NCBI GenBank assembly: GCA_016744415.1
Contig: JADGEL010000003.1
Coordinates: forward strand, 434,001-498,000
Source: Flavobacteriaceae bacterium
Lineage (GTDB): Bacteria > Bacteroidota > Bacteroidia > Flavobacteriales > Flavobacteriaceae
DNA: 64,000 nt
Direction: 5' to 3'
The first letter of the stretch is position 1, and every line of letters starts with the position of its first letter. The translations under genes and the position numbers were made by a program. The notes below the pieces were generated by a model. The model searched no databases. It saw only the letters and a list, made by a program, of their open reading frames with translations, and was not told where the DNA came from. Below, piece after piece: positions 1-22,959 of this stretch.

Positions 1-723
1 GTCAGTTGCACTGAAATAGTTGTTTACAAAGAAGTTACTTGGTGATGCTAATACATCTACATTTGATGCTGTTTTAAATCCACCATCAACCACATCTTCG
101 ATTCTACTCATAAGAATATCATGACCATCTTGTGATAGACTTGAAATTGTAGGGTCAGTAAATATTTGATTTGCAGGCTCACTTGAGTAAGTCCAATTTG
201 AGCTTCCTTGCGCTATGTCTCCAATATTATTATTCCATGATCCAGCGGTTGCAGGATTCCATCCAGACATACCCCATTTTAAAGCTTGTGTATCGCTATA
301 ACCATACATACGCATCAACGAAGTTGCATAACAAGCTGTTTGACCAGTATAACAAACCATTAAAATCGGTTTACCATTCGCATTTGCAGCTTCTGTTAAA
401 ATATTTTCAAAAGCAATATTTTTTGCTCCTTGTATATGTCCTGAGTTAAAAGCATCTCCACTTCTTATGTCAAGAATATAATATTTATCTAAAAAAGCAT
501 CTAAATCTGCATCTGCTGGAGCACCAACAACAAATTTTATTGTACCGCCTGGACCCGATAAAATATTATTAAGATCCAATTGATTGGCAACCATATAATC
601 TTTCAATAATGAAAATGCTGGTGTAACCTCTCCACCTCCTAAATCATCACCTCTATCACATGATGTAAGAAACAATGCTGGTATTAATAAAAACCCTATT
701 ACTATTAATTTTAAATTTTTCAT
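1..723 (-). CDS. Rhodanese-domain lipoprotein (partial, C-terminus beyond window)
   Basis: Open on the minus strand from an ATG at 723 to the window edge without a stop, giving the first 241 residues. The N-terminus is a lipoprotein signal with lipobox LTSC (Cys22), so the protein should be anchored facing the periplasm or surface. A rhodanese domain follows: DIRSGDAFNSGHIQGAKN around 85-102, then the active-site loop CYTGQT with Cys124, then the KWGMSGW motif. It is a clear paralogue of the next gene upstream (same KWGMS-W and CYSGQ layout), which carries two rhodanese domains, so the missing part probably holds a second one. The 35-base gap to that gene suggests one operon. Expected role: sulfane-sulfur transfer outside the cytoplasm; the substrate is unknown. 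Confidence 0.85.
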   Translation of the reverse strand, partial: MKNLKLIVIGFLLIPALFLTSCDRGDDLGGGEVTPAFSLLKDYMVANQLDLNNILSGPGGTIKFVVGAPADADLDAFLDKYYILDIRSGDAFNSGHIQGAKNIAFENILTEAANANGKPILMVCYTGQTACYATSLMRMYGYSDTQALKWGMSGWNPATAGSWNNNIGDIAQGSSNWTYSSEPANQIFTDPTISSLSQDGHDILMSRIEDVVDGGFKTASNVDVLASPSNFFVNNYFSATD

Positions 724-2295: not shown

Positions 2296-2910
2296 TTAAC
2301 ACCCTCCTTCAGGAACGCGTTTTTTCTTTTTTGGAGCCGTAATTACTTTTTTAGGCTTTTTCTTCTCTTTTACAACAACTGGCTCTTTATCCATCAAGCT
2401 TTTTAAAACTTTTGCATAATTTACCGTAGGCCTTTCTAAATTAACATCTTTTACTTGGAATTGGTTGTTAACAAAACTAGTTTCTATACAAAGAATCTTT
2501 GCGTTCTCATATCCCAACTGATAAAGTAACATCCACGCACTATTGGCTTCATCTGGGTGCTCTCCGTATAAAATTGCTATTTTACTCACATCACTTATTT
2601 CTTTTAGAAATGAGCTACTCTCTTTTTCAAAAACATTTATAGTCGATATGTTTATTGCTCCATCTAAATGACCTTTCGCATATTCATAATTACTACGAAT
2701 ATCAATAATTTCATAATCTGTCTCAACTAACTGTTCAAAATCATTTTGAGATATTATATAATCTTTTTCAACAATTTTTTCTAGAGTCTCTTCGGCACTT
2801 TTTTCAAAAACATACTCTGGTTTTTTAAAAGTCAATACTGCTATTACAACTACAAGTAAAAATAAAACTGCAGAAATTGACACCCTCTTTGTTCTTTCTA
2901 ATTCTTTCAT
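2296..2910 (-). CDS. Membrane-anchored pseudo-rhodanese with C-terminal VPEGGC arm (paralogue 2)
   Basis: 204 residues. A short basic N-terminus and one membrane segment (about 11-28) predict an N-in/C-out anchor with the rest in the periplasm. Residues about 55-150 have the rhodanese fold signature (EIIDIRSNYEYAKGHLDGAINI at 67-88). The catalytic loop reads YGEHPDEA (115-122) with no cysteine, so classical sulfurtransferase activity is not expected. A Lys/Pro-rich tail from about 180 ends in KKKKRVPEGGC, placing Cys204 at the very C-terminus; the only other Cys is 141. The tail is almost identical to that of the neighbouring paralogue although the bodies differ. Last gene of the operon with the YeeE pair and the PsrABC-like enzyme. 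Inferred: a sulfur-binding carrier arm, by analogy with the GGCGG arm of SoxY; homology to SoxY is not claimed. Confidence 0.85.
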   Translation of the reverse strand: MKELERTKRVSISAVLFLLVVVIAVLTFKKPEYVFEKSAEETLEKIVEKDYIISQNDFEQLVETDYEIIDIRSNYEYAKGHLDGAINISTINVFEKESSSFLKEISDVSKIAILYGEHPDEANSAWMLLYQLGYENAKILCIETSFVNNQFQVKDVNLERPTVNYAKVLKSLMDKEPVVVKEKKKPKKVITAPKKKKRVPEGGC

Positions 2911-2954
2911 GATTTACATTTATTATATGAAACGTCTCTTTAACAGCTAAATCG

Positions 2955-3623
2955 TTAACAACCTCCTTCTGGAACTCTTTTTTTCTTTTTCTTAACTGTA
3001 ATAACTTTTTTAGTTGATTTTTTCTCAACTTTAATTTTAGCTTTTGTTTCTGTTTTAGGAACACCAACTCCAAAATACATTCCTGCAGCTTTTCTAAAAG
3101 AATACAACTCAAATTCCTTCTGAGAATCTGTTTCTTTTGGCATCTGAGGATCTATAATTGTATTAAACCATTCATTTAACCCACCACTTAAAACATAAAG
3201 GTTTTTATAGTCAAGCCTATTACCAAGCATCCATACTTCATTTGCATAAAAGTTGTCATTTGAATAAAGAACAACATCGTAAACATCTTGATTTAAAAAG
3301 TCGTTAAATTCTTCATCAAAAAACTTTTCAAGAGGAATGTTGATTGCATTAGGCAAAGTAAACTCTTCATACTCTTTTTTTGAGCGCGTATCAACAAGTA
3401 ACAAGGTTGGGTCTTGATTTATAATCCTATCTGCTAATTGATCAGTACTAATGTATCTCTCGCTGCTTACAGCTTGTTTTACAAATACCAGAGGGCTCAC
3501 ACCTTCACTTCTTGTTTGCTTAGGCAATAAGACCAAGACTCCTGCAAGCACTACTAATATTAGTGCCAATATTTGATATTGCCTTGTGATAATTATTTTT
3601 TTTGATTTATACTTTTTTGACAT
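2955..3623 (-). CDS. Membrane-anchored pseudo-rhodanese with C-terminal VPEGGC arm (paralogue 1)
   Basis: 222 residues. Basic N-terminus, one membrane segment (about 17-34), then a periplasmic rhodanese-fold domain at about 57-160 (LLLVDTRSKKEYEEF at 74-88; YVLSGGLNEW at 143-152). At the active-site position the sequence is LYSNDNFYA, with Ser121 where Cys is expected. The whole protein has a single cysteine, Cys222, the last residue of the tail KKVITVKKKKKRVPEGGC. Codons for the shared RVPEGGC end differ synonymously from those of the paralogue (AGA/CGC, CCA/CCT, GGT/GGG), which points to selection on the protein tail and not to recent duplication. Twelve bases downstream of a YeeE-like gene, so co-transcribed. 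Function inferred: scaffold plus covalent sulfur carrier for the adjacent Mo enzyme or transporters. Confidence 0.87.
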   Translation of the reverse strand: MSKKYKSKKIIITRQYQILALILVVLAGVLVLLPKQTRSEGVSPLVFVKQAVSSERYISTDQLADRIINQDPTLLLVDTRSKKEYEEFTLPNAINIPLEKFFDEEFNDFLNQDVYDVVLYSNDNFYANEVWMLGNRLDYKNLYVLSGGLNEWFNTIIDPQMPKETDSQKEFELYSFRKAAGMYFGVGVPKTETKAKIKVEKKSTKKVITVKKKKKRVPEGGC

Positions 3624-3635
3624 GGCTATATAATT

Positions 3636-4226
3636 TTAGTAAAATACTTTTTTAACTTTTTTCCTTACTATATCTGAAATAACAAAAGATACTAATGCTA
3701 TGATGGTAAAGATGAAAATAATCCAATAAGGAGATATATCTAATGTATCAACTAAGGTGATATTTCCCAAATTTGAACCTACAAACAAAGGCTCTAAAAC
3801 ATCAAACAATTCAGCAAAAATGAATATTCCTATCATTAAACCTATGGTAAAAACAATACCATCTATCTTACCAATAGCAACGGCACATAAACTTGTTCCT
3901 GGGCAAAATCCTCCTGCTAAAAATCCAACTCCCATAACCATTCCTCCAATTATTGCTGCCCATAAATAGGTTGGATGGACATATAGTTGAGTAATATCAA
4001 CCAAATTTAAATAATCCATATAAAATATTCCTAATACTGCAACAACTGCTGAAGTAAAAAATACTTTTAGTACTACAAAGTCATAGCCATAAAAAACACC
4101 TGCCAATTTTCTTGAAGATGAAAATCCAGAAGCTTCTAATATGTAGCCGAAAGCCATACCTATTAAGATTGCTATTACGTAGTTCCACTCTAGTGGAATT
4201 AGTCCGTTAGGAATTAATGGTCCCAT
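3636..4226 (-). CDS. YeeE/YedE-type sulfur transporter subunit (half-size, GFCPGTSLC type)
   Basis: 196 residues, hydrophobic, with about five membrane segments and the YeeE/YedE motif GGFCPGTSLC (Cys108, Cys114). YeeE/YedE proteins move thiosulfate or related sulfur species through a pore lined by conserved cysteines. In many bacteria the protein is split into two half-size partners; the partner here is the next gene upstream (ending at 4250). A 23-base gap separates the two and 12 bases separate it from the pseudo-rhodanese downstream. Substrate unproven; the context suggests thiosulfate, sulfite or a sulfane-sulfur compound. Confidence 0.88.
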   Translation of the reverse strand: MGPLIPNGLIPLEWNYVIAILIGMAFGYILEASGFSSSRKLAGVFYGYDFVVLKVFFTSAVVAVLGIFYMDYLNLVDITQLYVHPTYLWAAIIGGMVMGVGFLAGGFCPGTSLCAVAIGKIDGIVFTIGLMIGIFIFAELFDVLEPLFVGSNLGNITLVDTLDISPYWIIFIFTIIALVSFVISDIVRKKVKKVFY

Positions 4227-4249: not shown

Positions 4250-4786
4250 TTAAATCCAATTTTTTCTAAAAAAGTATGCTACTATAAATCCAGTTCCAAA
4301 AATGGAGAGCATTGTAATAAAACCACCTGTTGATAAAACTGCCATACCGCTTAATGCTGCACCACTTGTACACCCTCTTGCTATTTGCGCTCCTAAACCA
4401 AATAAGATACCTCCACCTAAAGCAAAAAGCAATCGTCTTTTACTTGTGATTTTTGGAGAATGATCTATTTTCCATTTTATACGACCTGTAAAAGCTCCTG
4501 ATAAAAATGCTCCAAACAATACGCCAATAGCTTCATAAACTAACCAATTATTCATTGGCGATTTATCTTCACTAAGAAATTTGCTATAATATTCATTACT
4601 ATGAGCGTGTGTTGTTGCTACTGTATCAACAATTGTTACAACACCACTTTTTAATGCTCCACTAGCTCCTAATCCTCTACCTGTCAAATAAAATGTTAGG
4701 ATGATTAAAAGACCCATTAAAAACCCACCAAAATATGGATTCCAATAAACATGTCTGTTTTTTTGTTTTTTATTTTTCATCATCAT
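4250..4786 (-). CDS. YeeE/YedE-type sulfur transporter subunit (half-size, RGCTSG type)
   Basis: 178 residues with about four membrane segments and the conserved ARGCTSGAALSG motif (Cys139), the signature of the first half of YeeE/YedE. A hydrophilic loop containing HAHSNEYYSKF lies after the first hydrophobic region. Three consecutive Met codons leave the start uncertain by one or two residues. It begins 3 bases after the stop of the NrfD-like gene, so it belongs to the same operon. Pairs with the GFCPGTSLC protein to make one transporter (inferred from the recurring pairing, also seen at 21978-22959). Confidence 0.87.
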   Translation of the reverse strand: MMMKNKKQKNRHVYWNPYFGGFLMGLLIILTFYLTGRGLGASGALKSGVVTIVDTVATTHAHSNEYYSKFLSEDKSPMNNWLVYEAIGVLFGAFLSGAFTGRIKWKIDHSPKITSKRRLLFALGGGILFGLGAQIARGCTSGAALSGMAVLSTGGFITMLSIFGTGFIVAYFFRKNWI

Positions 4787-4789
4787 AAT

Positions 4790-5731
4790 TTAGTATAAAT
4801 ATCTTGTTATTTGACCTGCTTCTACCATCACCATCCTAAATACAAGTCCACCCATTAATATTAAAATAGCTGGTATTGCTATTGGAATTTTATAACCCAT
4901 TAGCTCGACTCCTTCTAGTAATGCTGGGAAAATCAATCCGAGTATAACTACAAATACAAAGAACATAACTGTATATGACCCTCCAAAAATTAAATTAAGA
5001 GCCTCTAATTGTACTTCTGATCCTGCATACATTCCCATCAACATATGAATGATTAAAAATATTTCTAAAATAATAAGAAACAAATCAATTTTACTAATCA
5101 TACTTTGTTCATAATGGTGTTTAGAAAGTAATAAAATAACTGCTGCTCCAGTTGATAATCCTGAGACTAAGAATAAGGGACCTAAAATTGCATTATTCCA
5201 TAAAGGGCGCGAATTAAAGGCTGATAACAATATACCTGTATAGATTCCTAATATAATAGCTAATGGTAACATTACCAATGCCATTGTCTTCCTGTTCTTA
5301 ATAAAAAAGGCTTCCCATTTTTTAATAAAATCATATTTCCAATCCCATTTAGGAAACATTTCAGTGAAATAACTAAATACCCAAAAAATTGAAATAAAAG
5401 TTATAATTAATAAAACCCAAGCTCCCCAAGACATTGGAGATTCAATTCGGATTGTTGTATACAATCTCCACACATATAGCTTATGTGTTAAGTCATAAAA
5501 TAATGCAGCTAAACCAACACTTAAAGCAATTGGTACAACCAACATAGCTTGTTTAACAGTTGCTTGGAATTGTTTTTCTTTTTTTAAAATAGTAACTAAA
5601 GCTGCGAAAACCATTATTCCCGCTGCCAATCCTCCTAAAAATAGATATAAAGAAATTGGGAAATGCCAAACCTCTAAGGATGGATCAATATTTGGAATGT
5701 TTCGTCCACTAATGAATATTTCTTCTTTCAT
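4790..5731 (-). CDS. psrC: NrfD/PsrC-type quinone-interacting membrane subunit
   Basis: 313 residues, very hydrophobic, with about eight to nine membrane segments. The N-terminal region (LEVWHFPISLYLFLGGLAAG) is typical of the NrfD/PsrC family. These subunits exchange electrons with the quinone pool and pass them to the four-cluster ferredoxin subunit. Third gene of the 8529-to-2296 operon, 12 bases after the PsrB-like gene. Direction of electron flow (quinol-driven reduction of a sulfur compound, or quinone reduction) cannot be read from the sequence. The symbol is given by family resemblance. Confidence 0.85.
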   Translation of the reverse strand: MKEEIFISGRNIPNIDPSLEVWHFPISLYLFLGGLAAGIMVFAALVTILKKEKQFQATVKQAMLVVPIALSVGLAALFYDLTHKLYVWRLYTTIRIESPMSWGAWVLLIITFISIFWVFSYFTEMFPKWDWKYDFIKKWEAFFIKNRKTMALVMLPLAIILGIYTGILLSAFNSRPLWNNAILGPLFLVSGLSTGAAVILLLSKHHYEQSMISKIDLFLIILEIFLIIHMLMGMYAGSEVQLEALNLIFGGSYTVMFFVFVVILGLIFPALLEGVELMGYKIPIAIPAILILMGGLVFRMVMVEAGQITRYLY

Positions 5732-5743
5732 GATTGAGATTTG

Positions 5744-6277
5744 TTATGTTAAATAATACACATTTGGTTTTGTCCCAGATTCTGGTGCTAATACCTTTTG
5801 TGTTCTTGTTTTTAATAATTGTGATACTTCACTTTTAGGATCATCTAAATCACCGAAATACATACATTTTGTTGGACAAACCGAAACGCAAGCAGGCAAT
5901 TGTCCTTTCTCAAGTCTGTGATAGCAAAAAGTACATTTATCGACATATCCATCAGGATGCTGGAATCTAGCATCATAAGGGCAAGACTCAATACAAGCCC
6001 CACAACCTATACACTCATCTTCTGTAACTAATACAACTCCGCCTTCAACAATATGACTAGCCCCTGTTGGACAAGTCCTTACACAAGGAGCGTTATCGCA
6101 ATGATTACATCTCTCTGATTTCAATTCTAGGTCTACTGTTGGATATGCCCCAGTTACTGTTTCAGTAACCCAATCTCTACAATATCCTACGGGTACATTA
6201 TTTTCGGTTTGACATGCAACTACGCAGTCACTACATCCAACACATTTTAATGTGTCTATTACCATTGCATATCTCAT
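5744..6277 (-). CDS. psrB: PsrB/PhsB-type four [4Fe-4S] ferredoxin subunit
   Basis: 177 residues with four cysteine groups typical of DMSO-reductase-family electron-transfer subunits: CVGCSDCVVAC, CNHCDNAPCVRTC, CIGCGACIESC and CTFC...ACVSVC. It should bind four [4Fe-4S] clusters and link the catalytic subunit to the membrane subunit. No signal peptide of its own, as usual for subunits exported together with a Tat-bearing partner. Its ATG overlaps the stop of the catalytic gene by four bases (ATGA), showing translational coupling. Confidence 0.9.
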   Translation of the reverse strand: MRYAMVIDTLKCVGCSDCVVACQTENNVPVGYCRDWVTETVTGAYPTVDLELKSERCNHCDNAPCVRTCPTGASHIVEGGVVLVTEDECIGCGACIESCPYDARFQHPDGYVDKCTFCYHRLEKGQLPACVSVCPTKCMYFGDLDDPKSEVSQLLKTRTQKVLAPESGTKPNVYYLT

Positions 6278-8529
6278 ACTATAGCTTCTTTATGTGGATT
6301 TTCAGTTCTAAATTTTACGAAATTACCTCTCATTCCTGTTCCTCCCATTAATGGATCTACAGTTACTTTAGTAATTAATTCTGTGTCACTCATTCCTTTA
6401 CCAAATGCTCTTGAAAGTTTTTTATTATTATGACCAAAACCATGATACATATAAACTGAGTCCCATCTAATACGCTCTGTTACTCTCACTTTAATTGAAA
6501 AAGTAGAAATAATTCCGTCTTGATTCTCTAACCATACTTCTTGATTATTTTTCAATCCTTCAACTCGCGCTACTTTAGGATTTACCCAAAGTTTGTTTTC
6601 ATCCATTAAATCACTTAAATTCGGATTGTTAATTGTTCTACTAAAAGTATGCATAGGAGAACGTCCGTAATTCAATCTATAAAAACCTTGTTCTGGATGG
6701 TCGTGTGATGTATAAACTGGCATAGGATCAAAACCTTGATCCGCTAATTCTGGCGAATAAAATTCAATTTTACCAGTGTTAGTAGGAAACTCATATGGCT
6801 GCCCTTTTTCTAAGAACATTGATCCTGATTTACGCTCAAACATTTTAACTCCAATCTTCTCCATTTCTTCTAAAGAAGTTCCCATCTTTTCTAATTGCCA
6901 AGAGATTACATCTTTAAAATCATCGTAAGCAAAATAGTCCCCTAAGCCTAATTTCTCACCAATCTGTTTAGACATCCACCAAGCAGGTTTAGAATTGTAT
7001 TTAGGTTTAGCTGCTGGCATTCTCAATGCAATAGATGGTTCTCTATTGGTAGCAGATCTTATTCCGTCATAACGTTCTAGATAAGTACATTCTGGTAAAA
7101 CAACATCTGCATAACCTGTAATTTCCATTGGCATCGTATCCATAACAACTATGAATTCTACAGCTTCCATCGCTTTTTCTATTATCTCTCGTTGTGGAAC
7201 AGTACTCACTAAATTAGTTCCTGCAACAAACCAACCTTTTATTGGATACTTATCATTTTCGCCAGGGATTGATGCGTTAATTACTTCATTTGTAATACCC
7301 ATTTCCGCAAAAGGATATTTTTCACCAATCTCTTTCCATCCCCATTTTGGATGTGGATATGGTGGGTGTGGATATTTTGGAACTTTTATTTTTTCTTTAA
7401 AGTAGAATCCACCTCGGTTACCCCAAGAACCTAATAAGCCATTAAGCATTGCAACTGCTCTTCCCCTTTGTGAGTCATCTCCGTACCATGTAACGTGTCG
7501 TCCTGGATGAACAATAGTTGATGGTGCAGAGGCTGCCATTGCTCTTGCCGTTTTACGAATTTCTTCTGGCTTAATAGTTGTAATTCCGTAAGCCCACTCA
7601 GGGGTAAAATCTTTAACGTGTTCTTTTAACTCATCAAAACCGTATCCATATTGTTTTACATATTCCTTATTATAAATATCTTCATAAATTAAAACATGCA
7701 TCCATGAAAGTAACAATGCTAAATCAGTTGAAGGTTTTATTGCTAGCCAGTGTTTTGATTTACTCGCTGCTGTAGAAAATCTTGGATCAACAGTAATAAT
7801 AGTTGCGCCATTATCAATTGCTTCAGACATTTCTTGAACTTGAGAGTTGTGCATATTCTCTCCTATATGAGCTCCAATTAGCACTAAGCATTTTGTATCT
7901 CTAATATCTGTAGGCTCTGGTGAGCCAACCCATGATCCAAAGGTTAGTCCAAATCCTGTTTCTCTTGGCCCTCTACATTGTGCATAAGCAGGTTCAGCAA
8001 TTGTATCAGAACCATATGCTTTAAATAGATGTTCTAGATGGCTTCCTGGAGAACCATGTTTTAATAACGCCATACTTTCAGCACCATAGTTGTCTTTTAT
8101 TCCTTGCATTTTTGATGCAACAAGTGTAAGAGCTTCTTCCCAACTTGCTTCTCTAAAGGTGTCTTCTGAACCTACGTTTTTAACTCTAATTAAAGGTGTT
8201 TTTAGACGATCTTTATCAGCATACATTCCAACACCTCCAGTACCTCTTGGACAAAGACGCCCATAACAATGTGGGTCAGTTTCATTTCCAATTAACTGCT
8301 TAATATTATCATCTTCATCTGTATATGCCCATGCAGCACATTTCCAAAAGCATACTTCGCAGTAAGTTGCTGTTCGCTTTAAATTTCTAGCACTTGTTGC
8401 AAGTAAATTATTCTCTGTCAAGCTTTGACCTATAGATTTAAAAGCTGTTCCGAAAAGGGCAACACCTGCTGCTCCAAAGGAGGAGATTTTAATAAATGAT
8501 CTTCTAGAAGTAGTCATAGTTTTATTCAT
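6274..8529 (-). CDS. psrA: Tat-exported molybdopterin oxidoreductase, polysulfide/thiosulfate reductase type
   Basis: 751 residues. N-terminal Tat signal SRRSFIK (Arg9-Arg10) followed by a hydrophobic stretch, so the enzyme acts in the periplasm. A [4Fe-4S] site is formed by Cys57, Cys60, Cys64 and Cys93. AQCRGPRETGF places Cys185 where the Mo-coordinating cysteine is expected. The molybdopterin-binding and C-terminal dinucleotide-binding regions are intact, and length fits PsrA/PhsA (about 750-770), not TtrA (over 1000). With the PsrB and PsrC-like genes it forms a complete three-subunit enzyme. Preceded by an Fnr-like box and a perfect TGTAAC-N4-GTTACA palindrome shared with the divergent cytochrome gene. 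Possible substrates are polysulfide, thiosulfate or tetrathionate; the exact one is unresolved. Confidence 0.88.
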   Translation of the reverse strand: MNKTMTTSRRSFIKISSFGAAGVALFGTAFKSIGQSLTENNLLATSARNLKRTATYCEVCFWKCAAWAYTDEDDNIKQLIGNETDPHCYGRLCPRGTGGVGMYADKDRLKTPLIRVKNVGSEDTFREASWEEALTLVASKMQGIKDNYGAESMALLKHGSPGSHLEHLFKAYGSDTIAEPAYAQCRGPRETGFGLTFGSWVGSPEPTDIRDTKCLVLIGAHIGENMHNSQVQEMSEAIDNGATIITVDPRFSTAASKSKHWLAIKPSTDLALLLSWMHVLIYEDIYNKEYVKQYGYGFDELKEHVKDFTPEWAYGITTIKPEEIRKTARAMAASAPSTIVHPGRHVTWYGDDSQRGRAVAMLNGLLGSWGNRGGFYFKEKIKVPKYPHPPYPHPKWGWKEIGEKYPFAEMGITNEVINASIPGENDKYPIKGWFVAGTNLVSTVPQREIIEKAMEAVEFIVVMDTMPMEITGYADVVLPECTYLERYDGIRSATNREPSIALRMPAAKPKYNSKPAWWMSKQIGEKLGLGDYFAYDDFKDVISWQLEKMGTSLEEMEKIGVKMFERKSGSMFLEKGQPYEFPTNTGKIEFYSPELADQGFDPMPVYTSHDHPEQGFYRLNYGRSPMHTFSRTINNPNLSDLMDENKLWVNPKVARVEGLKNNQEVWLENQDGIISTFSIKVRVTERIRWDSVYMYHGFGHNNKKLSRAFGKGMSDTELITKVTVDPLMGGTGMRGNFVKFRTENPHKEAIV

Positions 8530-8630: not shown

Positions 8631-8730
8631 TAATAAAAAAACTAATTATAGTAAAATGTATATCAGAAGTTTAGCTAATAAAATAGTTTATAGAAATAAT
8701 TTAATTGTAAATTTGTTTCTTAAACTAATT

Positions 8731-10617
8731 ATGAAAAATAAAAAAAATAGCCTTATTTATATATTAGCAGTCGCTATTCCTCTAATTATTTTTCTCATAT
8801 TTAAGACAAGTTTAAAAACTCAATTCTCTGATGTTGATGTTGAATACGTTTCTATAAATAATATAGGAGAAGAATCTTGTCTACAATGCCACCAAGACAC
8901 AAAAGGATATTCAAAATATCACAATCCTGAACTTATAGGGTGCATCTCCTGCCATCTTGGAAACCCAAATACTGAGATAAAAGAAGATTCTCATAATGGG
9001 ATGGTTTTGATTCCAGGCAACCTATCTGATGCTACTCATACTTGTGGAAAATGTCATGCAGATGAACTGCGTAAAATAGAACACTCCTTAATGACTACAA
9101 ATAGTGGTTTGATTGCTGTGGATAAATATTTTTTTGGTGAAGCAGATTCTCTTGATTACCACTATCATATCAAGAATATTAAAGACTCTCCATCTGATAA
9201 GCATATTAGAGATCTTTGTGCTAATTGCCATTTAGGGGCAGAGAAAAAAGAATTTGGAGAAATCAATCAATTAAGCAGAGGAGGCGGTTGCAATGCTTGT
9301 CATTTAAATTATACCAAAAATTCAAAAAGCGATTTGGAAAACTATTTTGCATCAGGAAAAACAAATTTACCAACTTTTCATCCTTCTACAGATGTATTCA
9401 TGAGTAACACCCACTGCTTTGGTTGTCATAGTAGATCTAGTAGAATTTCTACTAATTATGAAGGTTGGCAAGAAACACTCTTAGATGCATCTGAAGTTGT
9501 CGGTAAAAGTAATTTTAAAGTTTTTGAAGATGAAAGAGTATATACATATAAAGGAGAAGATATTCATCATACCAAAGGAATGCTGTGTATTGATTGCCAC
9601 TCATCGCATGAAGTTATGGGTGATGGAAAAACCTATTCACATGAAGAGCAAGCTGTAAAGTTACAATGCGCAGATTGTCATTTTAATGAAAAGCCGAATA
9701 CAATTGCATATGGTGACTTAGATAATGAGAGTTTGTTAGTTTTTTTGCATAGAGAATATACACATACTGATAAACCAATATTAGTTGCAGAAAAAGATAA
9801 ACATCCATTAGTTAATACTTTTGTAGATTCTCTAGGGAATGCGTTTCTAATTGGCAAAAAAGATGGAACTCTTTTTGATTTAAAACCTCAATCTGAAATA
9901 TGTTCAAAAGATAATACTCATAAAAATGTTAGCTGTTCTACTTGTCATTCTTCTTGGACTTCTAGATGTATAGGGTGCCATAATGAGTTTGATAAAAATG
10001 AAGCCAATGCTTTTGACTTATTAGATAAAAAATATGTAACAGGACAATGGAAAGAATATATAGCTGAGTTTTCTTCATCACAACCAGCTATGGGAGTTAG
10101 AGAAAATGATGAGGGAAAACATATTGAACCAGCCATACCTGGAATGATAATGACTATTGATAAGGGAAGTTATACTGGTAAAGAAAACGATAATTTATTT
10201 CACAGATTATACGCTCCTAATTCACCCCATACAACTACCAAAGAAGTTAGAGATTGTAAATCTTGCCACAGTAGTTCAGCAACGCTAGGCTACGGAAATG
10301 GGGAGTTAGTTTATACAATAAATAATGGATTAGGAAAATGGGTGTTCACTCCAGAGTATGAAAAAAATCCAAATGATGGATTACCAGAGGATGCATGGAT
10401 TCCATTTATGAAAGAAGTTGATAAAGATATTGTCAATTCTACTCGAATAGATTTTAGACCTTTTACAGTCAAAGAGCAACAGCAACTTTTATTAGTTGGG
10501 GCTTGTTTACAGTGTCATAATGACGACTCTAAAATCATGAAAGAAAGCTTAGTAGAAGGAATAACTCCTTTATTGAAAAAGTTAGACAATCAATGTATCC
10601 TCCCAACTTGGGAATAA
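8731..10617 (+). CDS. Dodecahaem c-type cytochrome, membrane-anchored
   Basis: Twelve CxxCH haem-c motifs are visible in order: CLQCH, CISCH, CGKCH, CANCH, CNACH, CFGCH, CIDCH, CADCH, CSTCH, CIGCH, CKSCH, CLQCH. The protein is 628 residues from ATG 8731. An in-frame ATG at 8656 would add 25 residues, but 8731 starts directly before a basic stretch and a membrane anchor (KNKKNSLIYILAVAIPLIIF) and suits the operator position. The haem domain should be periplasmic. It is divergently transcribed from the Psr-like operon with a shared regulatory region, so it probably exchanges electrons with that enzyme or with another island enzyme. I do not recognise a named family; it is not an obvious NrfA (no CxxCK), MccA or octahaem tetrathionate reductase. 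A possible electron sink, store or catalytic multihaem enzyme. Confidence 0.85.
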   Translation: MKNKKNSLIYILAVAIPLIIFLIFKTSLKTQFSDVDVEYVSINNIGEESCLQCHQDTKGYSKYHNPELIGCISCHLGNPNTEIKEDSHNGMVLIPGNLSDATHTCGKCHADELRKIEHSLMTTNSGLIAVDKYFFGEADSLDYHYHIKNIKDSPSDKHIRDLCANCHLGAEKKEFGEINQLSRGGGCNACHLNYTKNSKSDLENYFASGKTNLPTFHPSTDVFMSNTHCFGCHSRSSRISTNYEGWQETLLDASEVVGKSNFKVFEDERVYTYKGEDIHHTKGMLCIDCHSSHEVMGDGKTYSHEEQAVKLQCADCHFNEKPNTIAYGDLDNESLLVFLHREYTHTDKPILVAEKDKHPLVNTFVDSLGNAFLIGKKDGTLFDLKPQSEICSKDNTHKNVSCSTCHSSWTSRCIGCHNEFDKNEANAFDLLDKKYVTGQWKEYIAEFSSSQPAMGVRENDEGKHIEPAIPGMIMTIDKGSYTGKENDNLFHRLYAPNSPHTTTKEVRDCKSCHSSSATLGYGNGELVYTINNGLGKWVFTPEYEKNPNDGLPEDAWIPFMKEVDKDIVNSTRIDFRPFTVKEQQQLLLVGACLQCHNDDSKIMKESLVEGITPLLKKLDNQCILPTWE

Positions 10618-10684: not shown

Positions 10685-12025
10685 TTAAAAATTGTATCCT
10701 TTTAACATCAAGTTCCAATACATAAATGGTAAACCATGTCTTTTCAATATCCACATTGGGTAACTTGCTTTACCAGTATTAAAGAATTTACTTAACAATG
10801 GGTCAGACATTCTAACACCATCATAACCAAACTCAGCCAATAACATTTTATTAGGGGAAACTACTAATGGACAAGAAGAATAACCATTGTATTCTTTACA
10901 ATCTGCTTCTTCACCACCCATTAAACTTAATATGTTTTTTACAACAACAGGAGCTTGCTTTCTAATAGCAGCACCTGTACGTGCAGTTGGTAAATCGGTA
11001 ACATCTCCAACGCCAAATACATTAGGGTATTTTGTAGATTGCATAGAGTGTTTATCTACTGCCATCCAACCTTTATTAGGCCCATCTTGGTTCGCTAATT
11101 TGGTTTTTTGAAACCATGTTGGAGCAGATTGAGGTGGTGCCAAATGCAGCATATCATATTTAATAATATAATGTGTTCCTTCTTTTGTCATTTTAAAAGG
11201 AGAGTTCACTTCTTGCACTTCACGTCTTACACCATCTTCCCAAACTTGACCAATACAGCCTGCAGCATTCCGTTCATCGTTTACCACATAATTATCACTT
11301 CCATTGGGCAGCTCTAAACGTACATAATGTGCTTCTTTTTTCTCTCCATTAATTTCTACAAGTTTATAACCATAACGTTGTTTAATATGATATTTAACTA
11401 GATAATTTTCAAGTTCATCTTTAAAAGGTTGAACTCCAAAAATCATTGTTCCGGGAGTTGCAAAAATGATATTAGTATGCTCTTCTAATTGATCTTTAGC
11501 TATACGGTCTCCCATTAAATACATGATTTTTTGAGGAGCACCTGGACATTTTATTGGCGAAGCTGGTTGGGTGAACAAAGCATTACCTCCTTTAAACTTT
11601 TGCATTAACTCCCAAGTATACTCAGGGTCAACATAATTAGAGCATACTCCGTTCTTACCAAAGGCTTCTTTTAGCCCTTTTATACCGTCAAGATTTATTT
11701 GAATACCAGTAGCATTCACTAAATAATCATAGGTTAATTTATCTCCACTTTCTAAGATTACTTCATTGTCATCTGGTTGAATATCAGCAACCTTTTCTTT
11801 AATCCAAGATACTCCAGAAGGAATGAAATTCTTTTCAGGTCTTTGTGTATCTTCATAATCCATTAACCCAGCACCAACTAAGGTATTTGCTGGTTGGTAG
11901 TAATGTGTTTCTGTAGGATCTATAATTGCGATATCTAGTCCTTTCTTTGCTTTTTTTAGCTGAGCTGCAACCATAATACCTCCAGTTCCCCCACCTATAA
12001 TTACTATTTGATGATGTAATCCCAT
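10685..12025 (-). CDS. sqr: Type II sulfide:quinone oxidoreductase
   Basis: 446 residues. N-terminal FAD-binding motif IVIIGGGTGGIMVAAQL and a second flavin region near 337-345 (VFGVGDVTDLP). Conserved cysteines: Cys128 (GVCSNY), Cys160 in PIKCPGAPQKIMYL, Cys385 in SSCPLVVSP. The KCxGAPQK and SCPLV motifs are those of the type II SQR group that includes the mitochondrial enzyme. SQR oxidises sulfide to a protein persulfide, reduces quinone and hands the sulfur to a small acceptor. The persulfide dioxygenase just upstream is the natural next step. Its own promoter region contains a TGTAAC-N4-GTTACA site, and a terminator isolates it from the upstream gene. Confidence 0.92.
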   Translation of the reverse strand: MGLHHQIVIIGGGTGGIMVAAQLKKAKKGLDIAIIDPTETHYYQPANTLVGAGLMDYEDTQRPEKNFIPSGVSWIKEKVADIQPDDNEVILESGDKLTYDYLVNATGIQINLDGIKGLKEAFGKNGVCSNYVDPEYTWELMQKFKGGNALFTQPASPIKCPGAPQKIMYLMGDRIAKDQLEEHTNIIFATPGTMIFGVQPFKDELENYLVKYHIKQRYGYKLVEINGEKKEAHYVRLELPNGSDNYVVNDERNAAGCIGQVWEDGVRREVQEVNSPFKMTKEGTHYIIKYDMLHLAPPQSAPTWFQKTKLANQDGPNKGWMAVDKHSMQSTKYPNVFGVGDVTDLPTARTGAAIRKQAPVVVKNILSLMGGEEADCKEYNGYSSCPLVVSPNKMLLAEFGYDGVRMSDPLLSKFFNTGKASYPMWILKRHGLPFMYWNLMLKGYNF

Positions 12026-12179
12026 AAATATATATTTAAATTATTTTTTTGATTTACTTTTATTATTAGCTCAAAATCAATTTCTAAAAAGCTAATATTA
12101 TATAAAAATTTATATTGCAAATAAAGATACTGCTTTTTATTAATAATTAACAAAATTAATACTTGTTATGATCTCTATA

Positions 12180-12195
12180 TGTAACATAGGTTACA
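12180..12195. promoter_or_regulatory. Crp/Fnr-type operator upstream of sqr
   Basis: TGTAAC-ATAG-GTTACA, both outer half-sites perfect, centre about 162 bases upstream of the sqr ATG. Distance is larger than for the other sites, implying a long leader if it activates at -41.5. Confidence 0.65.
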
Positions 12196-12242
12196 ATAAA
12201 CGATAATATAGTATTTAATTTTTTACATCACTAATAATCAAT

Positions 12243-12267
12243 AAAAAAAGCGGCTAAAAGCCGCTTT
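12243..12267 (-). terminator. Intrinsic terminator after the persulfide dioxygenase gene
   Basis: AAAGCGGCT / AGCCGCTTT forms a perfect nine-pair GC-rich stem with a three-base loop and a run of seven T on the minus strand. It lies about 25 bases past the stop codon. Confidence 0.9.
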
Positions 12268-12291
12268 AAAAAATTTAAAATTATACTATAA

Positions 12292-13713
12292 CTACAACAT
12301 TGTTGTTGGACAAACAAATTCTGACAATGGAGCATTTGTTTCTTGAATATCAATAAAACCTCCTCTTACATCAGTAACTTTTTCTACACCATTTGCCATA
12401 AATATTGAGGCAGCGATTAAAGATCTAAAGCCTGATGCACAATGCAAGAAATATTCTTTTGAAGCATCAATCTCAGCAAAATTAGAATGGATAAAATCTA
12501 ACGGAAAATTTTCTACGCCAATAACGTGTTCAGAATTATATTCAGACTCTCTTCGTACATCAACAGGTTTTTCTATTTTTCCTGCTGCTAACATATCTAC
12601 AAATTTTGAAGCTGATACAGATCCTATTTTATCTATCAAAAATCCATGAGCTAACCAATCATGAATACCTCCTGCTAAATACCCTAAAGTATTATCATAC
12701 CCTACCCTAGAAAAACGAGTTGCTATTTCATTAACACGCAATTCATCATCAGAAATAAAAATTATTTTTTGATTGATATCAGCAATTAGCGCTCCTACCC
12801 ATGGTGCAAAACTATCGTCTATACCAATATACCAAGCACCAGGAACAGTCCCTTCATTTGTAAACGCATCTTTAGATCGTGTATCAATAACCAAAACATC
12901 CTTTTGCTCACTCATTTCTTTAAAAGTAATTGGGTCAAGTGGCGTAGTTCCTTTATGCAAAATCTCATCAATACTTGTATTGATAGTCTTGTTCATTCTA
13001 ACATTATTGGGGAAATATTGTGGTGGTGGTTTTAATCCAGTTGTCACCTCAATAACAAATTCTTCCTTAGTCATATCAGCTCTCAATGCATAATTTGTTT
13101 TCTTTTGGTTTCCTAAAGTGTCAAAAGTTTCTGAACTCATATTTTTACCACAGGCAGATCCTGCACCGTGATTTGGATATACAATAATATCATCAGGAAG
13201 CTTCATTATTTTATTTCGAAGTGAATCGAATAAATGTCCTGCTAAATCCGCTTCAGTTAATGTGCCTTGTTTCACTGCTAAGTCTGGACGTCCAACATCA
13301 CCAATAAATAAAGCATCACCTGTAAGAATACAAGGAGTATTTCCGTTTTCATCAGTAATTAAATATGAAGACGATTCCATTGTATGTCCGGGAGTATGCA
13401 TTAAGGTAATTTTACCATTACCAATTTTAAAATCTTCACCATCTGCTCCATTATAGATATCATATTCTGCTGTAGCATTTGGGCCAAATACTATTTTAGC
13501 TCCAGTTTTTTGAGCTAAGTCATATTGTCCTGAAACAAAATCAGCATGAAAGTGAGTTAGAAAAATATATTTAATTTTTGCACCATCTGCCTCAGCCATT
13601 CTTAAATAGGGTTCTGTTTCTCTTAAAGGATCTACAATTGCCACTTCTCCATTAGACTCAATATAATAAGCCATCTCTGCTAGGCATCCTGTAAATAGTT
13701 GTTCAACTTTCAT
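12292..13713 (-). CDS. CstB-like persulfide dioxygenase fused to pseudo-rhodanese and rhodanese
   Basis: 473 residues in three parts. Residues 1-240 are a metallo-beta-lactamase-fold persulfide dioxygenase: THFHADF (His54), HTPGHT (His106/His110), TGDALFIGD (Asp133), giving the 2-His-1-Asp iron site. Residues about 255-360 are a rhodanese fold (VLVIDTRSKDAF) whose active loop is FISDDELRVN, without Cys. Residues about 370-465 are a rhodanese with active Cys425 (HCASGFRS). The order dioxygenase / pseudo-rhodanese / rhodanese is that of CstB, which converts low-molecular-weight persulfides to thiosulfate. Cytoplasmic, no signal. Acts after SQR. An operator lies 70 bases upstream and a strong terminator downstream, so it is a single-gene unit. 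Confidence 0.9.
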   Translation of the reverse strand: MKVEQLFTGCLAEMAYYIESNGEVAIVDPLRETEPYLRMAEADGAKIKYIFLTHFHADFVSGQYDLAQKTGAKIVFGPNATAEYDIYNGADGEDFKIGNGKITLMHTPGHTMESSSYLITDENGNTPCILTGDALFIGDVGRPDLAVKQGTLTEADLAGHLFDSLRNKIMKLPDDIIVYPNHGAGSACGKNMSSETFDTLGNQKKTNYALRADMTKEEFVIEVTTGLKPPPQYFPNNVRMNKTINTSIDEILHKGTTPLDPITFKEMSEQKDVLVIDTRSKDAFTNEGTVPGAWYIGIDDSFAPWVGALIADINQKIIFISDDELRVNEIATRFSRVGYDNTLGYLAGGIHDWLAHGFLIDKIGSVSASKFVDMLAAGKIEKPVDVRRESEYNSEHVIGVENFPLDFIHSNFAEIDASKEYFLHCASGFRSLIAASIFMANGVEKVTDVRGGFIDIQETNAPLSEFVCPTTML

Positions 13714-13783
13714 CTTCTGTGTTTATATAGGTTAATACTAATTTGTGAATTTTATAAAATTAAGATTTATTTTAAATACACAT

Positions 13784-13799
13784 TGTAACTTTTGTTACA
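13784..13799. promoter_or_regulatory. Crp/Fnr-type operator upstream of the persulfide dioxygenase
   Basis: TGTAAC-TTTT-GTTACA (extended to TTGTAAC/GTTACAA), centre 78 bases upstream of the ATG at 13713. Half-sites are perfect inverted repeats. Confidence 0.7.
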
Positions 13800-13822
13800 A
13801 TTCTTACTTTTTTATGATTTTA

Positions 13823-15541
13823 TTAATTCTTTTGTTTCAAATACTTATTTAAATTATCTTTTTGATATCCAGTACGGTACCAATCAATTGCATCTTGAAT
13901 ACTCATAAAAAACAGATTGACATCTGCTTTTTCCATAAACCCTGATTTAATCATTTTATCTCTCGTTGGACCTTTTAATCCTGTAAAGGCAATCTTAATT
14001 TTCTTTTGTTTAAAATACTCCAACACTTCGAATAAAGCATAAATGGCACTACTATCTAAGCTACTGATGCTTTCTCCGTCAATAATCAACATTTTTAGTT
14101 TATCTCCTTTATAAGCTTCAAATTCATAAAGCTTATCTTTAAAAAATGTAGTATTTGCAAAATGTAATTGTGAATCAAATCGAACTATTAAAAGATCATC
14201 TTCAATTTCAACATCTTTAAATCGTCTTCTATTTCTATAAAAATGGGTATTTGGAATTTTTCCTAAAATAGCAATATGAGGCTTTGTATTTTTATAAATT
14301 AACATTCCTAAAGATAAAATTACACCGACTAATATCCCTTCTTTAATTCCGACAGTTGCTGTTGTAATCAAAGTAATATTTAAAATGATCAGATCTCTTT
14401 TTGAGTATTTCAGCAATTGCTTAGGAAAACTAAAATCTAACAATCCAAACACTGCTACAATAATAATTGCTGCTAAAACAGTTTTAGGTAAATAGTAAAA
14501 AACAGGAGTTAAAAACAACAGCGTAAGCGCAACAATAAAAGCTGATATTAATGATGCTAAGGGTGTTTTGGCTTCTGCTTGCTCATTTACTGCAGTTCTT
14601 GAAAAACCACCTGTTGCTGGATACGTTTGGAAGAATGACCCAACCAAATTTCCCAACCCTAAAGCTATTAATTCTTGATTTGGCACTACTTTGTATTCGG
14701 TATGTTTTGTCTCAATTGCTTTTGCCACAGAGACGGCTTCTAAAAATGCAATGAATGATAATGTAAAAGCGATTGGTAATAAGTCAGATAGAATCTGGAT
14801 ATCGAAATGTGGAATTCTAAATTCTGGCAACCCTTGAGGAATTTTACCAATAATTGCAACTCCCATTTGATCTAAACGAAAAAGCTTTACAGCAGCAATC
14901 GATATAATTACAACGATTAATGCGGCAGGAATTTTCCTTGCATATTTTTTTATTAAAATGATAGTAATGATTGATAAGGCTCCTACGATAAATGTTATCC
15001 AATGAATTTCATTTATATGTCTAAAAGCTTCGGAGAGTAAATTTTGAAGTCGATTATTTCTTGCAATATCAATTCCTAATAAATTTTTTAATTGGCTCAG
15101 ACCAATTATTAAAGATGCTGCAGAAGTAAAACCACTAATCACAGGTTTTGATAAAAAGTTAACTAAAAACCCAAGGCGAAACATTCCGAAGGCAATTTGC
15201 AACACTCCCATCATCAATGCTAAAAGAATTGCAAATTCTACAAATTGATCTGTTCCTATTTGTGCTAAAGTTGCAACACCTGCTGCTACAATTAATGAAT
15301 CCATTGCCACTGGCCCTACTGCTAATTGTCTAGACGTTCCAAAAATTGCATATACAATTTGCGGAATCATAGCCGTATACAACCCATAAATTGGTGGTAA
15401 CCCTGCGATGAGTGCGTATGCAATACCTTGTGGAATTAACATTACTCCTACTGTTAATCCAGCAATAATATCTCCTTTAAGCCAATCTTTTTTATAATTA
15501 GGAAGCCAATCAAAAATCGGCAACATACTTTTTAAAACCAT
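13823..15541 (-). CDS. SulP-family anion transporter with STAS domain
   Basis: 572 residues. N-terminal membrane part (about 25-430) with the SulP features MLIPQGIAYALIAGLPPIYGLYTAMIP and QTYPATGGFSRTAVN, followed by a cytoplasmic STAS domain (about 440-555, LLIVRFDSQLHFANTTFF; IIDGESISSLDSSAIYAL). SulP proteins carry sulfate, bicarbonate or other anions. Between the persulfide dioxygenase and a second SulP gene in a sulfur-oxidation island, export of sulfate or sulfite, or bicarbonate supply, are both possible. Separated by about 90 bases from the neighbour on each side; a degenerate operator lies upstream. Confidence 0.9.
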   Translation of the reverse strand: MVLKSMLPIFDWLPNYKKDWLKGDIIAGLTVGVMLIPQGIAYALIAGLPPIYGLYTAMIPQIVYAIFGTSRQLAVGPVAMDSLIVAAGVATLAQIGTDQFVEFAILLALMMGVLQIAFGMFRLGFLVNFLSKPVISGFTSAASLIIGLSQLKNLLGIDIARNNRLQNLLSEAFRHINEIHWITFIVGALSIITIILIKKYARKIPAALIVVIISIAAVKLFRLDQMGVAIIGKIPQGLPEFRIPHFDIQILSDLLPIAFTLSFIAFLEAVSVAKAIETKHTEYKVVPNQELIALGLGNLVGSFFQTYPATGGFSRTAVNEQAEAKTPLASLISAFIVALTLLFLTPVFYYLPKTVLAAIIIVAVFGLLDFSFPKQLLKYSKRDLIILNITLITTATVGIKEGILVGVILSLGMLIYKNTKPHIAILGKIPNTHFYRNRRRFKDVEIEDDLLIVRFDSQLHFANTTFFKDKLYEFEAYKGDKLKMLIIDGESISSLDSSAIYALFEVLEYFKQKKIKIAFTGLKGPTRDKMIKSGFMEKADVNLFFMSIQDAIDWYRTGYQKDNLNKYLKQKN

Positions 15542-15604
15542 TTATAGTTTTCTAATAGGTTAGTTCTAAGTTATGCAAAATTAAATAAATTGAAATTAAT
15601 ATTT

Positions 15605-15620
15605 TGTAACTAATAGCACA
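15605..15620. promoter_or_regulatory. Degenerate Crp/Fnr-type site upstream of a sulP gene
   Basis: TGTAAC-TAAT-AGCACA: one perfect half-site, the other matching only CACA-like. Centre 71 bases upstream of the ATG, close to the position of the operator in front of the dioxygenase gene. Weak. Confidence 0.35.
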
Positions 15621-15630
15621 AAGAAAATTA

Positions 15631-17352: not shown

Positions 17353-17381
17353 TTGTCAATTTAGTGATTTTGATAATAAAA

Positions 17382-17411
17382 ATGAGATTCCCGCTTTCGC
17401 GGGAATCTCAT
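17382..17411 (-). terminator. Strong hairpin terminator, also a copy of a dispersed GC-rich palindrome
   Basis: A perfect 13-pair stem around GATTCCCGC-TTTC-GCGGGAATC, followed by ATTTTTATT on the minus strand. It lies directly after the SoeA-like stop. The same core ATTCCCGC-TTTT-GCGGGAAT recurs at 56451-56470, so this may be a REP-like element serving as a terminator. Confidence 0.8.
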
Positions 17412-17420
17412 ATACTATAA

Positions 17421-20312: not shown

Positions 20313-20329
20313 TTTTTGATTTTATATTT

Positions 20330-21946: not shown

Positions 21947-21977
21947 ATTTTATAAGTTTTTTTGGTTGATTTATATT

Positions 21978-22391
21978 TTAATGTGGCAGTTTACTTTTTA
22001 TCGCATGGTATAGTAAGACTCCTAATAGTCCTCCTAGAATTACAATAATTATTGCCATTGCTCCTCTACCTAATAAAATGAACATTGGACCTGGGCAAGC
22101 TCCGGCTAGCCCCCAACCGAGTCCGAAAATGATACCTCCAAAAATATTTCTAGAGAAACCTTTCTTTTTAGGTTCGATTTCTATTTGTTTTCCTACGTAT
22201 GATTTTATCATTCCTTTATTAAAAAAATAAAAGACTATTATACCTAATGCAACTGCAGAACCAATTACTCCATACATATGAAAAGATTGGAACTTAAACA
22301 TTTCGTAAATACGATACCATGAAATAACTTCAGCTTTACTCAGAATAATTCCAAACAGCACTCCAATTATTAAAAATTTCATGTTTTTCAT
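21978..22391 (-). CDS. YeeE/YedE-type half transporter (GACPGPMFIL type)
   Basis: 137 residues with about four membrane segments and the conserved GLAGACPGPMFILLGRG motif, equivalent to GFCPGTSLC in the copy at 3636-4226. Ten bases downstream of its RGCTSG/GGCTSG-type partner. Together they should form one thiosulfate/sulfur-compound transporter next to the SoeA-like enzyme. It is shorter than the other copy and poorly similar to it, so the two pairs are probably not a recent duplication. Confidence 0.87.
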   Translation of the reverse strand: MKNMKFLIIGVLFGIILSKAEVISWYRIYEMFKFQSFHMYGVIGSAVALGIIVFYFFNKGMIKSYVGKQIEIEPKKKGFSRNIFGGIIFGLGWGLAGACPGPMFILLGRGAMAIIIVILGGLLGVLLYHAIKSKLPH

Positions 22392-22401
22392 GTTATTCGT
22401 T

Positions 22402-22959
22402 TTAAAAAATGAGTGGTAAAATAAACCAAGTTGTAATTAATCCACCGATAAAAAATCCGATGACAGATATTAAGGAAGGCATTTCTAAATTACTCAATCC
22501 TACAATTGCGTGACCAGATGTGCAACCTCCTGCATATCGAGAACCAAATCCAACCAAAACACCTGCAATTAATAAGATTGAAAATCCTTTTAATGTAAAT
22601 AAAGTCTCAATGCTGAACATCTCATCTGGAAGGTATTTCATCCCTACATTTTGAAATCCTAATTCAGATAATTCTTGAATTGTTTCTTGGCTAACTACTA
22701 CTGCAACTTCTGGTGTTAGCCAATGATAAGAAATAAATCCTCCTATCACAGCACCACCAAGGAACATTAAATTCCAACCATTTTTTTTCCAATCAAAATT
22801 AAAAAATCCAATAAACTTTCCAGCACCTCCCATGGCACACATGGTCTCTAAGTTAGAAGACACTCCAAATTTCTTTCCGAAATAAAAGAGTAAAAACATC
22901 ACCAAGGTAATTAACGGACCAGCAATATACCATGGCCACGGTTGAAGAATGATATCCAT
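22402..22959 (-). CDS. YeeE/YedE-type half transporter (AGGCTSGHA type)
   Basis: 185 residues with about five membrane segments and the YeeE motif YAGGCTSGHAIVGLSNL near 142-158. First gene of the operon 22959-to-17421 (YeeE pair, SoeBC fusion, SoeA). The promoter region contains a double TGTAAC palindrome 31-63 bases upstream and an Fnr-like box, so the operon is likely under the control of the adjacent Crp/Fnr regulator. Confidence 0.88.
   Translation of the reverse strand: MDIILQPWPWYIAGPLITLVMFLLFYFGKKFGVSSNLETMCAMGGAGKFIGFFNFDWKKNGWNLMFLGGAVIGGFISYHWLTPEVAVVVSQETIQELSELGFQNVGMKYLPDEMFSIETLFTLKGFSILLIAGVLVGFGSRYAGGCTSGHAIVGLSNLEMPSLISVIGFFIGGLITTWFILPLIF

Follow-up and report, generated by a model that had tools for sequence, protein, structure and literature searches.

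Membrane-tethered pseudo-rhodaneses with a cysteine-tipped C-terminal arm: candidate sulfur carriers associated with split YeeE pores in Bacteroidota

Background

SoxY is a periplasmic protein that carries sulfur on a C-terminal Gly-Cys arm, and a C-terminal Cys arm also serves as the sulfur carrier in DsrC and TusE, DsrC being a cytoplasmic protein of another fold. Sud of Wolinella succinogenes is a periplasmic protein of rhodanese fold that feeds a Psr-type reductase and uses the Cys of its rhodanese loop. The two proteins described here, termed A and B, resemble SoxY in their conserved C-terminal Gly-Cys arm (tails at loci L054 and L055 end TGGCG or SGGCG), but their scaffold is a rhodanese rather than the SoxY fold, they are membrane-anchored or, in relatives, fused to a pore, and the arm is basic. 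They share a terminal Cys arm with DsrC and TusE, but differ from DsrC in fold and probably in location. The likeness to Sud lies in a rhodanese fold linked to a Psr-type reductase; in A and B, however, the loop Cys has given way to other residues, and it is the Cys at the tip of the tail that is conserved. A and B may work like SoxY or DsrC, yet they belong to neither family.

Pores of the YeeE type import thiosulfate or sulfur and contain Cys residues that are essential, and the PmpA and PmpB halves have been proposed to pair, according to the available part of PMC11582611. How such pores are offered sulfur on the periplasmic side is so far addressed by models in the case of SoxT (PMC11582611, section 11). 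The half pores that adjoin the arm proteins or are fused to them are of the same kind as YeeE/TsuA, SoxT and PmpA/PmpB, but a rhodanese arm fused to the pore is undescribed for these systems in the available part of that source. A carrier that is fused to or encoded beside the pore, and that has a single conserved Cys, would provide a directly testable answer to the question of sulfur presentation in these bacteria.

A cluster with the gene order MerR-psrABC-DUF395(x2)-rhodanese has been reported in Ca. Thermonerobacter, where the psrABC genes resemble most closely their counterparts in Melioribacter and Ignavibacterium (PMC6338057, available part). The last gene is labelled a rhodanese-related sulfurtransferase, and the missing catalytic Cys and the tail are not mentioned in the part of that paper available. 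Many of the distant Psr-type loci described below have the same gene order, and the likeness is one of gene order. On this partial text the operon was known before (PMC6338057) and the arm is apparently new. In literature outside subscription sources we found neither a Cys-tipped arm on a rhodanese nor a YeeE-rhodanese fusion with such an arm.

Organisation of the locus and architecture of A and B

The window (the whole 64,000-nucleotide stretch of DNA analysed) contains a minus-strand gene run PsrA-PsrB-PsrC-YeeE_b-YeeE_a-A-B, followed by a tandem rhodanese and then by a lipoprotein-type rhodanese (Table 1). The best NCBIfam model for PsrA is the thiosulfate reductase PhsA (469.9 bits, below the cut-off of 694), and on this profile match PsrA is a relative of PhsA that stays short of the PhsA family cut-off. 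Both YeeE halves score above the Pfam cut-off for PF04143 (Sulf_transp). YeeE_b matches the solved TsuA, and its GCTSG Cys aligns with TsuA residue 293 as counted by hand on the printed alignment; no TsuA match was given by YeeE_a. The closest named A protein, with 94% identity, is from a Urechidicola MAG. A DNA match to the operon was not found in plasmid records, and searching these with the YeeE_a-arm fusion returned two weak matches, which involve the pore part.

Table 1. Features of the arm-protein locus in the window
Feature	Position	Strand	Basis
Lipoprotein-type rhodanese, runs off window start	1..723	-	Pfam
Tandem rhodanese, without Cys tail in this genome	759..1763	-	Pfam
B, membrane-anchored pseudo-rhodanese, 204 aa, tail end RVPEGGC	2296..2910	-	ORF, Pfam, alignment
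Arm of B, residues 166-204 (approximate), last Cys codon at 2299-2301	2299..2415	-	sequence, alignment
A, membrane-anchored pseudo-rhodanese, 222 aa, sole Cys is the last residue	2955..3623	-	ORF, Pfam, alignment, model
Arm of A, residues 190-222, last Cys codon at 2958-2960	2958..3056	-	sequence, alignment, low pLDDT
A Ser121 codon, at the place of the rhodanese active-site Cys	3261..3263	-	alignment
YeeE_a, half YeeE/YedE pore with a GGFCPGT motif, N-terminal half of PF04143 matched	3636..4226	-	Pfam
YeeE_b, half YeeE/YedE pore, C-terminal half, GCTSG Cys	4250..4786	-	Pfam, alignment
NrfD/PsrC-like membrane subunit	4790..5731	-	profile scans
PsrB-like 4Fe-4S subunit	5744..6277	-	profile scans
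PsrA/PhsA-like molybdopterin catalytic subunit, twin-arginine-like start (SRRSFIK)	6274..8529	-	profile scans
ExtM-like multihaem cytochrome c, divergent	8656..10617	+	profile scan

Coordinates, frames, tails and the N-terminal membrane anchor of both open reading frames are as given in the initial annotation, which had also noted correctly that one of the two contains no Cys but the last; this protein is A, and B carries one further Cys. Both proteins end KKKKRVPEGGC and are then terminated by the stop codon, and the pseudo-active-site is represented by Ser121 in A and by a YGEHPDEA loop in B. The final seven codons, read from the sequence, differ at three places between the two genes, all of them synonymous, as had been claimed for RVPEGGC. 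When the 3.1-Mb genome of origin was searched for PEGGC followed by TRR, two places were found, exactly the A and B genes, and the reversed pattern gave none.

PF00581 (Rhodanese) is matched by 25/25 A proteins scanned and by B of the window, the E values for the two window proteins A and B being 9e-14 and 3e-13. The AlphaFold model of A (mean pLDDT 81) comprises a membrane-type helix at residues 13-31 and a well-predicted rhodanese body, and the best PDB matches of this model in Foldseek are solved rhodaneses. The tail from about residue 190 is modelled with low confidence, as expected of a flexible arm. A and B are members of the Rhodanese superfamily, as judged by the modelled fold for A and by profile for both.

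Membership of the SoxY family (SoxY domain PF13501) is ruled out by Pfam scans of A, B and 25 A homologues, which gave Rhodanese only, and membership of the catalytic rhodaneses (thiosulfate and 3-mercaptopyruvate sulfurtransferases) is rejected since the active-site Cys is missing. A C-terminal sorting or lipidation signal was likewise rejected, by inspection only, because the tail has no hydrophobic stretch.

Conservation in Flavobacteriaceae-type loci

Matches to A at E 1e-6 or better were obtained in 51/299 genomes of the same family (that of origin included). A itself is present in 25 of these 51, as judged by score, tail and context, the rest being weaker rhodanese matches. A was not found in the same-genus genome G113, nor in most genomes of the family, and other families of the same order and class yielded a strong match in 0/57 sampled genomes. 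As a unit the A/B pair is conserved, though patchily distributed: at the 24 loci besides that of the window, a partner gene directly follows A in 24/24, PsrABC is visible in 23/24 and the YeeE pair in 21/24 (L045 ends at a contig edge; L052 and L053 have no YeeE pair). A scan of named genomes, from which 80 loci were kept out of 238 confirmed, returned mostly Flavobacteriaceae. Named hosts include Lutibacter, Polaribacter, Lutimonas, Maribacter and Winogradskyella, together with a few MAGs named Bacteroidales or Bacteroidetes.

Ser121, Asn122 and Cys222 are among the invariant positions in the alignment of A proteins (n=25), and the last Cys is the only invariant Cys in that of B (n=23), from which L041 and L042, where B lacks an in-frame tail, were excluded. 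Across 105 Flavobacteriaceae-type loci, with identical A proteins counted once and reading frames that run off contig ends excluded, Cys is last or next to last in 92/92 unique intact A proteins and in 86/91 B proteins. The B exceptions are L041, L091 and L123, which have no tail, L042, which is frame-shifted in the tail, and L132, which is short; a DNA-level check that covered L041, L042 and L123 revealed no Cys tail just downstream of B in L041 and L123. By way of background, Cys occurs in the last two residues of 0/243 recognised neighbouring proteins and of 7/518 other ORFs of at least 200 aa, A-profile matches having been removed. In the tails of A and B this Cys ranks with the most conserved residues, and tail length and basic residues vary.

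The 86 A-B pairs from loci with both tails formed the base for the active-site, tail-match, codon and charge tests. The active-site position is occupied by Ser in 86/86 A proteins and is not Cys in 86/86 B proteins. With the distant proteins described below, 227/229 have no Cys at this position; close to it in the active-site loop, a Cys is seen in one A, one B and one additional distant protein.

Distant members in other classes of the phylum

A search of 395 genomes of the phylum with a profile of A (no more than nine candidates per genome were scored in profile searches) gave a match at 1e-8 in 82 genomes, the weak end of which resembles other rhodaneses. As a distant set we took all 60 places outside the family of origin scoring at least 50 bits in this search. 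Intact members are present at 57 of them, with Cys last in 51 and next to last in 6; the places dropped are L223, a 124-aa unrelated rhodanese without YeeE, and L219 and L225, broken reading frames in which the tail codons are present. Six more members (L264-L269), missed or scored lower by the first A profile, were found via their YeeE neighbour and have Cys last or next to last in 6/6, which brings the total to 63/63 intact distant members. The hosts belong to other classes of the same phylum, where 62/297 genomes are represented by our own count. Exactly one arm ORF is found in each of 57/57 distant loci, with no B, and on sequence evidence the A-type protein is the core of the family in Flavobacteriaceae and in other Bacteroidota classes.

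Typical distant tails end KKKKREGC, KKKKAAGGC, KRVVGGC or GGC plus one residue. The VPEGGC arm motif proposed in the initial annotation therefore holds as regards the terminal Cys; VP is local only, and the general motif is (E/G/D)GC or GGC plus a residue. Frequent loss of the terminal Cys among homologues, named there as evidence against the proposal, did not occur (A 92/92, distant 63/63, B 86/91). A blind search of the 395 genomes for KKK(K/R)EGC-TAA, a pattern that misses most family members, found 7 places, 7/7 of them at A-like loci, with 0 for the reversed control. The mean net charge of the last 20 residues is +4.3 in the 57 distant proteins versus +0.8 in all ORFs of at least 200 aa. 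The active-site Cys is missing in 55/57 distant members (the exceptions, with Cys, are L232 and L233; L264-L269 are outside this count), so that the idea of an inactive rhodanese as scaffold is borne out family-wide (86/86 A, 86/86 B, 55/57 distant).

Association with YeeE pores and exchangeable redox modules

The arm protein is fused to YeeE_a in 35/63 distant members, one such fusion having been scanned with Pfam. The redox modules accompanying the 63 members are OTR (35), PsrABC (22) and a triple rhodanese (5), with one locus at a contig end; 33 OTR loci have a cytochrome b561 and 2 do not. Among the first 57 distant loci OTR occurs in 30/57, with no Psr there. The OTR of L177 belongs to the octaheme tetrathionate reductase family (TIGR04315, 590 bits versus a cut-off of 375), and the other OTRs were assigned by phmmer similarity to it. 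For example, L172, L177, L179, L183, L185 and others have an operon composed of OTR, cytochrome b561, YeeE_b and a YeeE_a-rhodanese-arm fusion.

In the reverse direction, a YeeE_b profile detected 67 places above 180 bits in the 395 genomes, with an arm protein adjoining or fused at 67/67. Matched to loci by hand, these are the 63 intact distant members, 2 broken ones, the locus of the window and G032. Since the profile was built from arm-linked loci, the weight of 67/67 lies in the score gap, from 180 to 83 bits: the next YeeE matches score at most 83 bits, and two such loci that were fetched (L270 and L271) have no arm. Ordinary YeeE pairs without an arm are thus represented by L270, L271 and positions 21978-22959 of the window. 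Pore Cys motifs are present in 80/80 YeeE_a and 80/80 YeeE_b proteins.

Redox labels placed on a YeeE_b tree of 73 rows, in which the bootstrap is not fully settled and L264, L265 and most Flavobacteriaceae are left out, give 4 changes for Psr (3 forced) and 2 for OTR (2 forced) by well-supported branches. This suggests at least about two exchanges of the redox partner, with the arm retained. Pore and arm vary least from lineage to lineage; what changes is the enzyme, of a type acting on sulfur oxyanions or polysulfide. Linkage to psrABC and YeeE genes, as anticipated in the initial annotation, proved close in both directions (67/67 YeeE_b places; redox genes at 62/63). As to the partners it had named, YeeE stands as the most constant, in the form of a split pore, and Psr stands in part, being replaced by OTR in other lineages; further rhodaneses, suggested there as loaders, were not recognised beside most distant members.

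Two genomes retain A, B and PsrABC without the pore: G181 has no YeeE_b match at E 0.001, and G223 has no YeeE pair in the locus and weak YeeE matches elsewhere. YeeE therefore cannot be the sole partner, and G181 suggests that the arm can serve Psr alone, like Sud. The AlphaFold model of a fusion (mean pLDDT 73 overall) is poor in the pore part, and its best 50 Foldseek matches include no YeeE and are mostly rhodanese-type domains; owing to the poor pore part the model carries no information on contact between arm and pore.

MerR-type regulators adjoin many loci. ExtM-like multihaem cytochromes of about 900 aa are encoded upstream of the MerR regulator and psrABC in L170, L182 and L186, and that of L170, the sole one scanned, begins with a cytochrome b domain. 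Putative molybdenum-cofactor synthesis genes, recognised by sequence start or length, adjoin the Psr operon in L042, L043 and L044.

Matching tails within a genome

The tails of A and B from the same genome agree at 0.85, versus 0.62 when shuffled (best of 2000 shuffles 0.66), and the four residues before the last four agree at 0.86 within a genome versus 0.40 across genomes. Codon identity between the two tails is 0.63 versus 0.58 expected from the genomes' own codon usage. This closeness to expectation indicates that the equal tails are not mainly due to recent gene conversion, which we mostly reject as their cause, although a small excess remains. The very tail of A and B is also borne by the tandem rhodanese of L054 and L055, and in L041 the tandem rhodanese ends EGGC and B has no tail. 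Overall, a Cys in the last three residues is found in 5/53 unique tandem rhodaneses (L054, L055, L041, L048 and L111), the tail ends being GGCG, EGGC or APGCD. Tails that match within a genome, including that of the tandem rhodanese, behave as would a module recognised by a common partner.

Proposed function and alternatives

Lipobox-like starts occur in A of L052 and in B of L054 and L055, a fourth match to the regular expression, L081, having been set aside by eye as a plain anchor. A crude positive-inside test favours N-in for A (68/86) but gives no such signal for B (40/86) or for unfused distant proteins (12/27). The neighbouring PsrA has a twin-arginine-like start. We provisionally regard a periplasmic position of the arm proteins as likely.

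We lean, by a little over an even chance, towards A and B being periplasmic tethered sulfane-sulfur carriers of the swinging-arm type that serve the reductase and/or the YeeE pore. The N-terminal helix would hold A and B to the inner membrane, a task that elsewhere might fall to fusion with YeeE_a or to a lipoprotein-like start, and the rhodanese domain without its catalytic Cys would form a scaffold or docking body. A flexible basic arm of some 20-35 residues would present the single terminal Cys, which could take up sulfur, as a persulfide or S-thiosulfonate, at the periplasmic PsrABC-like enzyme or OTR and exchange it with the YeeE pore and/or the redox enzyme. We infer the periplasmic side, the sulfur cargo, the direction of flow and the partner of each step; movement of sulfane sulfur between enzyme and pore is the simplest reading. 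TusA, DsrC and DsrE were not found in the genome of origin (controls match in 11/14, 1/14 and 8/14 genomes, respectively), which leaves the arm as the only carrier candidate found there, and the lack of a TusA/DsrE-type acceptor argues against simple import. A SoxY search of the same genome gave no match, and no control genome matched either. In the available part of the Lutibacter profundi genome paper, polysulfide reductase and SQR are listed and thiosulfate gave no growth stimulation; a simple role in thiosulfate respiration is accordingly not favoured.

More tentatively, and with somewhat less than even confidence, we propose that these proteins form a hitherto overlooked class of tethered sulfur carriers, spread over several Bacteroidota classes, in which a dead rhodanese with a Cys-tipped basic arm would load or unload a split YeeE pore together with an interchangeable redox enzyme. 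As a further part of the same tentative proposal, the arm would be a portable module, present in some genomes on two or three rhodaneses at once. If so, a dead enzyme fold has found a second use as the body of an arm that carries sulfur, and annotators could recognise a sulfur module in Bacteroidota in which TusA, DsrC and DsrE are not found.

Other functions can be envisaged for the terminal Cys. It might act as a redox gate or sensor by forming a reversible disulfide with the reductase or with a Cys of the YeeE pore, which would thereby open or close, without any cargo, and a single conserved Cys adjoining a conserved pore Cys, the fusion of the arm to YeeE_a and the MerR-type regulators beside many loci would all suit such a role. 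We regard this as unlikely, although the least so of the alternatives: the arm is kept without YeeE (G181) and without Psr (OTR loci, 30/57), so that one fixed disulfide partner does not fit, and some Flavobacteriaceae have two or three arms per operon. A purely structural role is rather improbable, namely that the basic tail binds partners or acidic membrane and the Cys cross-links subunits, for example in an A-B disulfide. The single arm protein, without B, at 57/57 distant loci argues against this, as does the tail itself, in which Cys is among the best conserved residues while length and basic residues vary; nevertheless the likeness of the A and B tails in any one genome would be expected if both bind one partner, and the tail charge (+4.3 in 57 distant proteins versus +0.8 in ORFs of at least 200 aa) is in keeping with docking.

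A Lys-rich, Cys-tipped arm that binds chalcogen could alternatively serve in the handling of selenium or tellurium oxyanions or of metals. The combination of ExtM-like cytochrome, ExtI-like porin and rhodaneses is that of the Geobacter ext cluster, as described in the available part of PMC5877670, and all three occur in the Flavobacteriaceae operon, the porin in L034; both the cytochrome and the porin score below the NCBIfam cut-offs. However, the OTR and YeeE partners point to sulfur, and so does the best NCBIfam model of PsrA, thiosulfate reductase PhsA, albeit below cut-off; we give this option a similarly low probability to that of a structural tail. It is very hard to regard A and B as ordinary rhodanese sulfurtransferases with an incidental tail. 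The Pfam Rhodanese match is clear in 25/25 A proteins scanned and two distant members do have Cys at the active-site position, but that Cys is missing in 227/229 proteins and the terminal Cys is present in 92/92 and 63/63 A-type members.

Other sulfur-related genes in the vicinity

A second sulfur-looking region is located at positions 10685-22959 of the window. It encodes a metallo-beta-lactamase-rhodanese and, as judged by eye, an SQR/FCSD-like flavoprotein (Pyr_redox_2) and two putative SulP-like transporters. Further genes there code for a second molybdopterin enzyme, which has a fused FeS-NrfD subunit, and for a half-YeeE pair of the ordinary kind (DUF6691/Sulf_transp), which lacks an arm. 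In L034 (positions 13922-14968) and L057, an ExtI-like porin gene, of which that in L034 was scanned, lies between the lipoprotein rhodanese and a Crp-type regulator, an arrangement reminiscent of the Geobacter ext cluster. In the genome of origin this place is occupied by a 345-aa ORF.
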